Shown: positions 1,706 to 10,500 of the stretch, one piece after another
How the letters are laid out: each line of letters opens with the position of its first letter
Numbering within the stretch: position 1 is the stretch's first letter
Assembly: GCF_024054035.1 (NCBI RefSeq)
Contig: NZ_JAMXQU010000003.1
Location: 248,001 to 312,000, forward strand
Length of the DNA stretch: 64,000 nt
Source: Asaia lannensis NBRC 102526
GTDB taxonomy: Bacteria; Pseudomonadota; Alphaproteobacteria; Acetobacterales; Acetobacteraceae
Reading direction: 5' to 3'
Translations under genes and position numbers: made by a program
Notes under the pieces: model-generated
Databases searched by the model: none
Told to the model about the DNA's origin: nothing
What the model saw: the letters and a program-made list of their open reading frames with translations, nothing else

Positions 1706-2431
1706 ATGAGAAATGCGAAAATGACCCAGTCCATCCTCTGGCTGACTGCCCTGATCATGTTCGCAGGAGGAACGGCCCTGCTGTTTCTCGGCAAACGCCG
1801 CACGGAAACAGAAGGCGTGATGAGCCTTGCCCATGGCATCGTTCCGATTATTGCGGGGTGTCTCTATGTCGCCATGGCGACGGGCCAGGGCGCTGTTCTG
1901 CTTCCCACCGATGCAACACTTGCCGGTGTCGGCAATTCCACGCGTATCCTGTGGTTCGGTCGTTATATCGACTGGTTTTTCACCACCCCGCTTCTGCTGG
2001 TCGGCCTCGGTTGCCTTGGCATGCTGCGTGGTCGCAAGCGCGCCGATCTGCTGCTCGGCGCTGTGGCAGCCGATATCATCATGATCGTCACGGCTTTTGC
2101 CTTCAGCGCGTCTGAAAACGTGATCAGCCGCTGGATCTGGTTCATTCTCTCCTGCCTCGCTTTTCTCGGCGTCTATTACGTCATCTGGGTGTCACAGAAA
2201 GAGGCGAACCAGCTCGAAACACCGGCCGTGCAGCAGGCCTATCTGCGTAGCGCCGCAATCCTGTCGGTGCTCTGGATGGTCTACCCGGTCATTCTGGCCC
2301 TGTCGCCCGACGGTCTTGGGATCGTGCCCGATGGTGCGAGCGTGCTGATCATTGCGATCACCGACGTGCTGGCCAAGGTCGGCTTCGGTTTTCTCAGCCT
2401 GTCCGACGACAGAAAACTCGTGACAGCCTGA
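1706..2431 (+). CDS. Microbial (type 1) rhodopsin with DTG motif, probable light-driven proton pump
   Basis: A 241-residue seven-helix retinal protein of the bacteriorhodopsin class. Helix C reads RYIDWFFTTPLLLVG: Asp89 is the Schiff-base proton acceptor (bacteriorhodopsin D85), Thr93 matches T89, and Gly100 replaces the cytoplasmic donor D96/E108, giving a DTG motif. Helix G reads ITDVLAKVGFG, with Asp220 and the retinal lysine Lys224. Trp90, Trp190, Tyr193 and Pro194 line the pocket. Leu97 matches the residue linked to green absorption in proteorhodopsins. The proteorhodopsin counterion His appears to be Leu53, so the pump looks more bacteriorhodopsin-like. Phe occupies the place where carotenoid-antenna rhodopsins need Gly. 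The start is uncertain: ATG 1706 or ATG 1721, neither with a strong ribosome site. blh follows after 4 bases. Pump direction is inferred. Confidence 0.93.
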   Translation: MRNAKMTQSILWLTALIMFAGGTALLFLGKRRTETEGVMSLAHGIVPIIAGCLYVAMATGQGAVLLPTDATLAGVGNSTRILWFGRYIDWFFTTPLLLVGLGCLGMLRGRKRADLLLGAVAADIIMIVTAFAFSASENVISRWIWFILSCLAFLGVYYVIWVSQKEANQLETPAVQQAYLRSAAILSVLWMVYPVILALSPDGLGIVPDGASVLIIAITDVLAKVGFGFLSLSDDRKLVTA

Positions 2432-2435
2432 TCGC

Positions 2436-3377
2436 ATGATACCCGGTCGACTGCTCGATGCTCCGACCGGGCCTTCAGACCGGATCGTACAGGCATACTG
2501 GCTGCTCGCCGGAGCAAGCGCCGTCTTGTCCATAGCGTTTGCAAACGAGACCCTGATGCTCCTGACGATCCTCCTTTTTGGCGTGCCTCACGGGGCGCTG
2601 GATGGAGAAATGGCACGGGAGCGTTTGCACGCACGCTGGGGCGTCGCCTGGTTTCCTCTTTTCGGCCTGCCCTATCTTGCAGCGATCGCTCTCGTGATCG
2701 CTGCATGGCAAATCTGGCCCTATGCGACACTCACGGCATTTCTTGTTCTGTCGCTATGCCATTTTGGCGCCGAAACCGCTGGGACCGACCGTCCCCTGTT
2801 ATCGGCTTTCGTACTGGGCGGCGCACCGCTCATTCTGCCAGTCTGTCTGTATCCAGCTCAGACAGCGACTCTGCTTGACGGCATGATCGCCCCTCACGTT
2901 CTGGACGGTCCACCGCCCTGGATGACAGACCTCATGCCTGTCTGGACGGTTTGCGCGCTCGTATGGCTGGCGAAAACCGATCGATACGTCGTCGTAGCGA
3001 TTTTCCTGCCGGTCCTGCTGGTTTTCTGGCTGCTGCCGCCTTTGCCAGCCTTCATGCTCTATTTCATTTTCATCCATGCACCGGCGCATATAGACGGGCT
3101 GACTGCGTCGAATAACTGGTCTCGCCTCACGTCACAGCGCGATGCGCTCAAAAGGGCGATCCCCCTGTCGCTCCTGACGGCCATTATCGCTTTCGGTCTC
3201 TGGCCGCTTTATGCGGGGCCGCCTGTATCGCGCCTGTTACAGCTGACATTCCAGCTACTGGCAGCACTCACCCTGCCCCATATGGTGTTCGACATGCTGA
3301 TAACGCGCAATTCCCCCATCATCAGGGGAGGTTCGGCACGACGGCGTTCCATTTCAGGCGGAATCGACCGCCTCTGA
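2436..3377 (+). CDS. blh: Brp/Blh-family beta-carotene 15,15'-dioxygenase
   Basis: Integral membrane enzyme that cleaves beta-carotene into two retinal molecules, the chromophore for the rhodopsin just upstream. It is 313 residues, strongly hydrophobic, with about eight membrane segments. The family's iron-ligand histidines are visible in order: GVPHGALDGE (His52, with Asp56), LSLCHFGAE (His110), FIHAPAHIDG (His215/His219) and LPHMVFD (His283). ATG 2436 lies 4 bases after the rhodopsin stop, so the two are surely cotranscribed and probably translationally coupled. The last 24 bases overlap the 3' end of recO on the other strand, and the Arg/Ser-rich tail after about residue 290 looks like read-through into that sequence. 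Beta-carotene synthesis genes are not in the window. Confidence 0.9.
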   Translation: MIPGRLLDAPTGPSDRIVQAYWLLAGASAVLSIAFANETLMLLTILLFGVPHGALDGEMARERLHARWGVAWFPLFGLPYLAAIALVIAAWQIWPYATLTAFLVLSLCHFGAETAGTDRPLLSAFVLGGAPLILPVCLYPAQTATLLDGMIAPHVLDGPPPWMTDLMPVWTVCALVWLAKTDRYVVVAIFLPVLLVFWLLPPLPAFMLYFIFIHAPAHIDGLTASNNWSRLTSQRDALKRAIPLSLLTAIIAFGLWPLYAGPPVSRLLQLTFQLLAALTLPHMVFDMLITRNSPIIRGGSARRRSISGGIDRL

Positions 3378-7567: not shown

Positions 7568-10500
7568 TCAGAAATGATCGATGCGTGACACGCCCTGGAT
7601 AGTGCGCAACTGCTCGCCCAGACGCGGCGTGACGGGGAAATGGCCGGTCAGGGTCACCTCGACCGCCTTGGTTTCATCCACGGCGGGAACCAGAACGATC
7701 TTGCCACGCCCCCTGCCCTTGCTGATCAGTAGATCGCGCACCTTGGTCACGGCAGAAGCATCGCTGATCCAGACACGCATTTCCGAGCTTTCCTGCGCCG
7801 CTGCCTTTTCAAGATCCGTCACGTCATTGGCGGTAATACGCAGCGCGTCGCCTTCCAGCTTCAGATCTGCCGTGACCATCACGGCCTGACCGGCCACAAG
7901 CAGATCGCGACAGCGTGACAATACTTCTGAAAACAGTGTGACCTCGCAGCCGCCGGTGGCATCCGACAGGCGCACCCAGGCCATTTTGCTGCCGCTCTTG
8001 GTGGGGCGCTCCTTCTTGTCGACTACGCAGCCTGCAATACGCACACGATAGGAGCCGTTTTCAGCGGCAGTCATGAGGTTCTGCGATGTCAGCACGTTGG
8101 CCCGTTTGAGAACGGCGCGATAAGCGTCGAGCGGATGGGCAGACATATGAAAGCCGATCGCCTCAGCCTCGGCCGCCAGACGTTCGAATTCGGGCCAGTA
8201 CGGGGCTTCGGCCAGGCGCAATTCCTCAGGCTCGGCCGAAGCCCCGAACAGACCGATCTGACCCGAAGCAGCCTCCTGCGCATCGGACTGCGCACGGCGC
8301 ATGATGATTTCAGAACTGGCGAAGACAATATGTCTTGGCTTGTCGAGCGAGTCGAACGCACCGGCTTTCGCCAGATTTTCGATCTGGATCTTGTTGAGCA
8401 GCTTGGCATCGCAGCGCGACGCAAGATCGGCCAGGCTCCTGAAGGGCTTGTCACCTCGTGCATCGACAATGGCCTGCATGGCCGAAAAACCCACGCGCTT
8501 GACGGCGGCAAGCGCATAACGAATGGCCCAGCTCCCGTCTTCCTGCTTCTCAAGCGAGAAATCGGCTTCGGAGCGATTGATATCGACAGGAAGCACCCTG
8601 ATTTTCATCCGACGCGCTTCCTGACAGAGCGAGGCGAGCTTGTCGGTCTTTTCGCGTGCCAGAGACATACATCCGGCAAGGAAGGCAACCGGGTGGTTGG
8701 CCTTCATCCATGCCGTCTGATACGAGACGAGCGCATAGGCGGCCGCGTGGGATTTGTTGAACCCGTAATCGGCAAACCGCGCCATGAGGTCGAACACCTC
8801 GGCCGCTTTTTCGGGCGTAATGCCGCGTCCTGTCGCACCCTTGACGAAAATCTCGCGCTGCGTGTCCATTTCGGCGCGAATTTTCTTGCCCATGGCGCGA
8901 CGCAAAAGATCTGCGCCGCCGAGACTGTATCCGGCCATTTTCTGCGCGATCTGCATGACCTGTTCCTGATAGACCATGATGCCGTAAGTCTCGGACAGGA
9001 TATCGCGAATTTCCTCATGGGGCGGCTCCCACGAGGCACCATGCTTGCGCGCGCAGTAATCGGGAATATTCGCCATCGGTCCGGGGCGATACAGCGCCAC
9101 TGCAGCAATCAGATCTTCAAGTCTCGTGGGCCGCATCTGCTTGAGCACGTCGCGCATGCCTGCGCCTTCGAACTGGAACACACCGCCCGCATCGCCACGG
9201 GCCAGCATGTCGTAGGTCGGTGCGTCGTCCAGAGGCAGGGTGGCGAGATCGACCTCAATACCCTGCTGCTTGATGAAGTTGATACCGCGTTTGAGAATGG
9301 TGAGCGTGGTAAGGCCAAGGAAGTCGAACTTCACCAGACCGGCCTGCTCGACAAACTTCATGTTGTACTGCGTGACAAGCATATCGCTTTTCGGATCGCG
9401 ATAGAGCGGCACAAGCTCGACCAGAGGGCGATCGCCAATCACCACGCCGGCGGCATGGGTCGAGGCATGTCGGAAAAGCCCTTCGAGCTGCAAGGCGATT
9501 TCCATCAGGCGCCGCAGGGCCTCATCGCTATCGCGCATTTCCTGAAGGCGCGGCTCGCCATCGATGGCCTGTTTGAGTGTAACGGGCTTGGCCGGGTTGT
9601 TCGGAATCAGTTCCGCCACGCGGTTGACCATACCGAACGGCAGGCCCAGCACACGCCCTACATCGCGCACGGCGGCACGCGCCTGAAGCTTGCCGAAGGT
9701 GATGATCTGCGCCACGCGCTCACCACCGTACTCGGTTCGCACATAGCGAATGACCTCGTCACGGCGATCCTGACAGAAATCGATATCGAAATCGGGCATC
9801 GAGACGCGTTCAGGATTCAGAAACCGCTCGAACAGCAGATTGAATGGCAATGGGTCGATATCGGTAATGGTCAGCGCCCAGGCCACCAGAGAGCCCGCAC
9901 CCGATCCACGTCCCGGCCCGACAGGAATATCGTGCTCTTTGGCCCACTGGATGAAATCGGCCACGATCAGGAAGTAACCGGGGAAGCCCATACGGGCGAT
10001 GATGCCCAGCTCCATTTCCAGACGGTCTTCGTAGCGCTTGCGCGTGTCGTCATCGGCCTGCATGCGTAGCAGGCGCTGGCGCAGCCCTTCTTCAGACATG
10101 GACCGAAGCGTCTCTTCCTCGGTCGCTCCCTCATTGACCTTGGGGCAGACCGGCAGCAGCGGCGGACGTGTCGAGACCTTCACTGCGCAACGCTGCGCGA
10201 TCATCAGCGTGTTGTCGCAGGCCTCGGGGAGATCGGCAAAAAGCGCACGCATGGCGTCGGGCGTCTTGAACCAGTGCTCAGGCGTGACGCGCCAGCGCTC
10301 CTGCTCGGCCATGGTGCGCCCCTGCGCGATGCAAAGCAGCGCGTCATGCGCTTCATACATGGCAGGCTTGGCAAAGAAGCACTCATTTGTGGCGACGAGC
10401 GGCAGACCGAGCCTGTCCGCCGCTGCAATCATACCAGGCTCGACAGCCCTTTCCTCGGGCAGGCCGTGGCGATGCAGCTCGACCGCCATATGCGCGCCAA

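Follow-up and report, generated by a model that had tools for sequence, protein, structure and literature searches.

A conserved rhodopsin–blh operon in Asaia lannensis encoding a probable MpR-like rhodopsin with glycine at the proton donor site

The window analysed here, a stretch of 64,000 nucleotides from Asaia lannensis NBRC 102526, carries a rhodopsin gene followed at once by blh, and the pair is a two-gene phototrophy operon conserved in Asaia. The rhodopsin adds a new member to the known MpR-like DTG/DTS group; it is probably MpR-like by descent, judging from its alignment and trees, with a residue set of its own. With moderate confidence, we read it as a seven-helix, retinal-binding pump that uses light to move cations outward, H+ most likely, with Blh belonging to the family that makes retinal from beta-carotene and the Schiff base reprotonated through a gate at His43.

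The rhodopsin–blh operon

1706..2431, + strand: rhodopsin gene, intact 241-aa frame, probable start 1721 (residue numbers count from 1706)
1811..1813, + strand: Glu36, equivalent of MpR E32; E in 25/25 Asaia and MpR-like rows of the alignment
1832..1834, + strand: His43, at the site of bacteriorhodopsin (BR) T46 and SpaR H37, proposed proton relay; His in 31/31 rows of the Asaia, MpR-like and SpaR-like groups and in 0/30 other rows
1970..1972, + strand: Asp89 (BR D85), primary proton acceptor/counterion; D in 31/31 rows of the three groups
1982..1984, + strand: Thr93 (BR T89); T in 31/31 rows of the three groups
2003..2005, + strand: Gly100 (BR D96), cytoplasmic donor site; G, S, T or A across the three groups
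2363..2377, + strand: Asp220 (BR D212) to Lys224 (retinal Schiff-base lysine, BR K216), by alignment
2436..3377, + strand: blh, beta-carotene 15,15'-dioxygenase (Brp/Blh family); TIGR03753, 158 bits against a cut-off of 95.25

Translation of 1706-2431 (+) gives a complete and uninterrupted microbial rhodopsin of 241 aa, the only one in its genome, which is a type 1 rhodopsin both by the Pfam profile Bac_rhodopsin (E=1.9e-44, 152.3 bits; cut-off 24.6 bits) and by the retinal lysine in helix G; D220 and K224, within DVLAK, were invariant in 22/22 aligned rows. The start is probably 1721, not 1706, because an in-frame TGA stands just 5' of the MTQS Met in 7/8 relatives and an ATG at the MRNAK position was found in 0/8. 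An AlphaFold2 model comprised seven helices (mean pLDDT 82) and returned 359 PDB matches at E<=0.001 in Foldseek, with PspR (7w74) and SpaR (8anq) at ranks 1-4 (E 2.8e-13 to 1.9e-12) and archaerhodopsin-2 close behind (E 2.5e-12), a small margin of PspR and SpaR over other rhodopsins.

Helix C reads RYIDWFFTTPLLLVGL, and within the motif YIDWFFTTPLLLVGL we take D89, T93, L97 and G100 to correspond to BR D85, T89, L93 and D96. The preliminary description had read Asp89 and Thr93 in helix C and Gly100 at the donor position, and translation and alignment agree with it. A carboxylate at the donor site, which would contradict that description, was sought by alignment and Gly100 stands there instead; a carboxylate donor hidden by misalignment is ruled out by translation and alignment together. 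The reported loss of the proteorhodopsin counterion histidine likewise holds, as Leu53 occupies a column that is His in 13/15 proteorhodopsin/xanthorhodopsin-type rows. The donor and acceptor roles of sites of the BR D85/D96 type are as stated by Okhrimenko et al. 2023 (PMC10154332).

The blh gene begins 4 bases 3' of the rhodopsin stop. It lies downstream on the same strand in 18/18 Asaia/Swaminathania loci (10 distinct rhodopsins; blh in two pieces in L006 and L043), and downstream in 12/15 other MpR-like loci, some of them on short contigs. Blh residues H52, D56, H109, H214 and H282 were conserved in 22/22 rows (the window and 21 chosen rows, with L006, L043 and L055 left out of the count because blh is in two pieces there), and the conserved histidines are presumably metal ligands. 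In L006, from the draft genome of Asaia platycodi, the pieces start at 8713 and 9066, reflecting either a sequencing error or a broken gene. The rhodopsin–blh pair is flanked by minus-strand genes that we take, by recognition and without a profile scan, to be parC-like and recO-like, and gene order around the pair is identical in Asaia sp. W19. A promoter scan was uninformative, with no promoter found where 0.8 would be expected by chance-level counts and 4 terminators where 2.1 would be.

Rhodopsin was present in 9/9 Asaia genomes examined, which are placed in the genus by rhodopsin domain sequences matching those of named Asaia loci exactly, and a Bac_rhodopsin match in 30/397 genomes of the family sample, the closest named relatives of the window rhodopsin being 7 Asaia loci and Swaminathania (83-88% identity). 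The acetic acid bacterium host put forward in the preliminary description is thereby supported; a rhodopsin/blh operon from Asaia bogorensis, the same operon in the same genus, has been in print since 2015 (Kawai et al., PMC4596401). In the passage of that paper on the operon, both genes are named and a light-driven ion pump is raised as a possibility, without motif, clade or function test, and a literature search joining rhodopsin, Acetobacteraceae and DTG found no paper. A phage origin was considered and rejected, the protein having no match in 50,697 phage records.

The rhodopsin is under purifying selection (window against 7 relatives: dN 0.08-0.11, with dS of 1.07-1.65 near saturation), which together with its presence in every Asaia genome examined argues that it is not a chance frame. 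In the same comparisons, which included the L006 Blh piece of 148 codons and in which dS was near saturation, dN was 0.49-0.56 for Blh and 0.09-0.21 for recO. Among five Asaia/Swaminathania rows (the window, L001, L002, L004 and L008) the rhodopsins are 80-89% identical and the Blh proteins 44-52%; between two Methylobacterium loci the values are 72% and 62%. The opsin is firmly constrained and Blh far less so, though its conserved histidines stay.

Descent and the donor site

Okhrimenko et al. (PMC10154332) describe two clades, the SpaR-like mirror proteorhodopsins and the MpR-like proteins (60 proteins); the former are acid-pH proton pumps with H32/H33 and S121/S199, and most of the latter carry E32, E33 and D35. 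From 99 distinct rows we chose 61 for a first tree and 36 for a second, the short fragments L015 and L059 having been dropped beforehand. SpaR and PspR rows were partial, and MpR itself was not among the tree sequences, the name of the MpR-like clade resting on Methylobacterium kin and on two Methylobacterium rows (L090, L091) with exactly E, E and D at the E32/E33/D35 sites.

In the 61-row tree, the ten Asaia/Swaminathania rows formed a clade (100/100) whose stem was long (0.78 changes per column). It lay inside the Acetobacteraceae MpR-like rows at starred support values (98/89 and 100/98), with Methylobacterium outside; Asaia, Acetobacteraceae and Methylobacterium rhodopsins together made one clade at 94/97, just under the starred level of the tool. 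SpaR, PspR, Sphingomonas and Pantoea, with one other Acetobacteraceae protein, fell in a separate clade (100/99), and the six SpaR-like rows grouped without the window protein in both trees (100/99 with 61 rows, 99/100 with 36). With the donor column left out, the 36-row tree still placed Asaia within the Acetobacteraceae MpR-like rows (98/88 and 99/98, again starred). The free search with 36 rows missed the MpR-like clade, yet a tree containing that clade was the better one by 1.6 log units (p-AU 0.555). Identity of the window rhodopsin was 43.7-54.7% to 13/14 MpR-like rows, with L034 lower at 37.0%, compared with 30.7-35.1% for the 6 SpaR-like rows; among plasmid relatives it was 45% for Methylobacterium and 31-35% for Sphingomonas/Pantoea, with two more distant.

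These results bear directly on whether the window protein could be a true mirror proteorhodopsin of the SpaR/PspR clade, as had been implied when PspR was offered as its comparator. It has the DTG motif, His43 and both extracellular serines (Ser134 and Ser212 for SpaR S121 and S199) in common with that clade, and SpaR and PspR are its best solved-structure matches by sequence as well as by fold. The SpaR H32/H33 pair is replaced by Val38 and Met39, and identity and both nestings within Acetobacteraceae MpR-like rows point the other way. A tree joining Asaia with the SpaR-like rows was rejected with 61 rows (p-AU 0.023) but not with 36 (p-AU 0.255), so that the phylogenetic check called for in the preliminary description came out MpR-like in the larger tree and weaker in the smaller, and the MpR-like assignment is probable, not certain. 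Membership of the mirror clade is accordingly very improbable, and PspR was probably the wrong comparator. At the sites of MpR E32/E33/D35, the window protein keeps Glu36 and has Gly37 and Met39 at the other two.

Several other genomes carry rhodopsins of these kinds. An Acetobacteraceae genome (G360) encodes a SpaR-like DTG rhodopsin with the HH pair (L033), so both DTG clades occur in the family, and has CrtY over the cut-off. Genome G108 has two MpR-like rhodopsins (L037, L101), and G017 (L053, L089) has one MpR-like and one xanthorhodopsin-type rhodopsin; roughly 1-3 kb from the xanthorhodopsin-type gene lie phytoene-synthase matches and weak CrtY-like ones.

Glycine itself does not define the group. 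Across the 31 Asaia, MpR-like and SpaR-like rows, the donor column holds G in 15, S in 8, T in 6 and A in 2, and in the 15 other MpR-like rows T in 6, S in 5, A in 2 and G in 2. Swaminathania salitolerans (L001, rhodopsin from 8001) has Ser (DTS) against DTG in 9 distinct Asaia rows, and parsimony counted 8 changes in the column on the 61-row tree and 11 on the 36-row tree, also when the donor column was left out. By alignment, Gly100 is best described as one state of a drifting donor site, with His43, invariant in all 31 rows, as the fixed feature. Five rows from Actinomycetota MAGs (L009-L013) show a further combination, with Gly at the donor site and Ser at the T46 site in 5/5, hence neither a carboxyl donor nor the histidine.

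In SpaR, H37 occupies the BR T46 site at hydrogen-bond distance from S84, and according to PMC10154332 Leu or Phe there blocks pumping, A and Y block it incompletely, and K, R and N have no dramatic effect. In the same source, His37 is proposed to act below about pH 6 as an internal donor or gate, while at higher pH the proton would be taken up directly from the bulk. Since several of these mutants still pump, a histidine at this site may be a gate more than a donor.

Proposed mechanism and supply of retinal

We propose that light would isomerise retinal on Lys224 and that the Schiff base proton would pass to Asp89, with Thr93, Arg86 and Asp220 around it, much as in bacteriorhodopsin. Gly100 being unable to supply a proton, reprotonation would run by way of a cavity on the cytoplasmic side, with His43 as its gate and Glu36 closer to the surface. 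By analogy with SpaR, His43-assisted reprotonation is the likeliest bypass of the missing donor, and H+ pumping of this kind would be our best estimate for the window rhodopsin. A pump is favoured by the pump-core residues, the constant T46-site histidine, the adjacent blh and the absence of an adjoining transducer gene. Pumping, its direction, the ion, the role of His43 and any pH dependence are what we infer here, beside the observed residues, conservation, operon and purifying selection and the probable clade.

The ion is the point at which a second reading enters. MpR is reported as a Na+/Li+ pump in PMC10154332, which cites Cho et al. 2021 (our literature search for MpR found PMC10154332, and no paper titled on MpR among the matches listed), so proton pumping is not to be assumed for a probable relative. 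The grouping with Methylobacterium rhodopsins and the Glu36 common to all Asaia and MpR-like rows would both suit a light-driven Na+/Li+ pump like that of Methylobacterium populi, with proton movement secondary. Against this, MpR E33 and D35 are replaced by Gly37 and Met39 in 10/10 Asaia/Swaminathania rows, Asp89 and Thr93 make a Schiff-base site of the proton-pump type, and Na+ pumping in the clade is supported by that one cited report; we consider such a pump unlikely. The MpR report, the missing H32/H33 pair and the activity of several H37 mutants nevertheless all count against H+ pumping through His43.

A light-sensing or regulatory role, with no net pumping, would accommodate the slow photocycle that we would expect without a carboxyl donor, and DTS also occurs in Anabaena sensory rhodopsin, the three-letter motif not fixing function (PMC10154332). 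The characterised relatives in that source pump, however, and no transducer-like or soluble partner gene adjoins the rhodopsin in the window or in L002, making a sensor improbable. Whichever function holds, the rhodopsin would be dark if it were without retinal, a concern raised by the carotenoid genes of its genome:

contig 12, 72653-75751, and contig 15, 26920-30488 (loci L120, L121): own carotenoid genes of squalene/C30 type (HpnCDE; CrtI-family cluster)

The genome has two squalene/phytoene-synthase homologues, which curated models name HpnD (317.4 bits, cut-off 278.6) and HpnC (250.7, cut-off 250.45), with HpnE adjoining; 9/9 Asaia genomes have two squalene/phytoene-synthase matches each (one in two pieces in G259), of which only the pair of A. 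lannensis was named. Contig 12 carries in a row an aldehyde dehydrogenase, two CrtI-family genes, a gene that we take by recognition, without an NCBIfam match, to be acyltransferase-like, and a glycosyltransferase. This cluster resembles the enzyme set for the squalene-derived C30 carotenoid of Methylobacterium extorquens AM1 as given in PMC10448405. The same source states that only C30 carotenoids have been reported from Methylobacterium, naming M. populi, the MpR host species, and mentions a crtB gene in M. extorquens without effect on its pigment, so C30 hosts need not lack crtB.

Despite the blh in the operon, no phytoene synthase and no CrtY were found in the A. lannensis genome by a search for squalene/phytoene-synthase and CrtY (TIGR01789) matches, and CrtY matched 0/9 Asaia genomes. 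At E<=1e-7, CrtY matched 0/21 genomes whose rhodopsins are all Asaia/Swaminathania or MpR-like and 8/8 genomes that carry a rhodopsin of SpaR-like or proteorhodopsin/xanthorhodopsin type (best E from 1.2e-8 to 6.3e-146; curated cut-off exceeded in 3 of the 8). Among the 21, two genomes showed weak similarity (E 1.0e-4 and 7.5e-4) confined to the first 140 positions, and 2 of 14 control genomes had a match, 0 over the cut-off. The split gave Fisher p of 2.3e-7 by genome and 1.6e-4 by genus, in a comparison framed after seeing the data, among related genomes, with genus g18 on both sides and 2 of the 21 genomes <75% complete. These 29 genomes comprised 26 of the 30 rhodopsin-positive family genomes and 3 of 35 further class genomes, G084, G105, G148 and G260 being left out for weak or partial rhodopsin matches. 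In other MpR-like hosts, phytoene synthases that serve acyclic C40 carotenoids may be present.

The profile PF05834 gave six weak matches in the A. lannensis genome, two of them over its 23.4-bit cut-off and two more with neighbours, and is unspecific, having matched 10/14 control genomes. The two matches that span more than 40 profile positions resemble an FAD/NAD-binding protein and a dihydrolipoamide dehydrogenase, names presumed from recognition, and the other four cover only the first 36-40 positions.

On gene content, Asaia seems unable to make beta-carotene. Maxima at 486/523 nm do not fit the spectra of neurosporene, alpha-carotene or canthaxanthin. These same maxima are given for all three peaks so named in PMC6151773, which disagrees with the gene result: using UHPLC-DAD-MS and standards, it reports C40 carotenoids for six Asaia strains, 2/6 of them with beta-carotene (0.1 and 0.7 ug per 100 mL); we infer that a C30 pigment may have been misnamed there as C40. 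A precedent for a possible unknown retinal route in Asaia is Aurantimicrobium minutum, a rhodopsin host that contains retinal without known retinal-making genes (PMC7734400).

We therefore put forward tentatively, as plausible rather than probable, that MpR-like rhodopsin–blh operons form a module for phototrophy in bacteria that lack a beta-carotene pathway. Asaia would make squalene-derived C30 carotenoids, be unable to build the C40 backbone, and take beta-carotene or retinal from a plant, nectar or insect host, or use an unknown route; the fast evolution of Blh may reflect a changed substrate. Asaia are cultivable, acid-tolerant, insect- and flower-associated bacteria, and an outside carotenoid need, if true, would tie their use of light to living on a host that supplies carotenoids. 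If the missing pathway is real, it would offer a clean case of a conserved rhodopsin–blh pair depending on outside carotenoid and would put published C40 assignments for Asaia in doubt. The source of retinal is the more interesting question beside that of the pumped ion. The rhodopsin, for its part, provides a further setting beside SpaR and MpR in which the carboxyl donor is missing and the T46-site histidine present, and could be used to test whether that histidine is the shared solution and which residues set the choice of H+ or Na+.

Comparison with known systems

Proteorhodopsins and xanthorhodopsins (DTE/DTD) have the pump core and Leu97, a colour-tuning site, in common with the window protein; proteorhodopsins differ in their carboxylate donor and helix-B counterion histidine, where the window protein has Gly100 and Leu53. 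Gly at the site of Phe146 has a carotenoid antenna role in the xanthorhodopsin type and occurs in 4/15 proteorhodopsin/xanthorhodopsin-type rows; from the Phe146 of the window protein, such an antenna was rejected.

Mirror proteorhodopsins (SpaR 8ANQ, PspR 7W74 and PaR) have in common with the window protein DTG/DTS, the T46-site histidine and the extracellular serines. Proton pumping confined to acid pH and inhibited by zinc is a further mark of that group. They differ in the H32/H33 pair and in forming a separate clade in the 61-row tree, and the window Blh is only 20.7-22.4% identical to four SpaR-like Blh rows.

With the MpR-like rhodopsins the window protein has in common a clade (probable), Glu at the MpR E32 site, a small residue at the donor site, an adjacent blh and the T46-site histidine, present in 15/15 rows assigned to the clade. 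What sets the Asaia/Swaminathania proteins apart are Gly37, Met39, Leu53 and Ser134, found in 10/10 of their rows, at positions mostly occupied by E, H or Q, S and G in the remaining 15 MpR-like rows.
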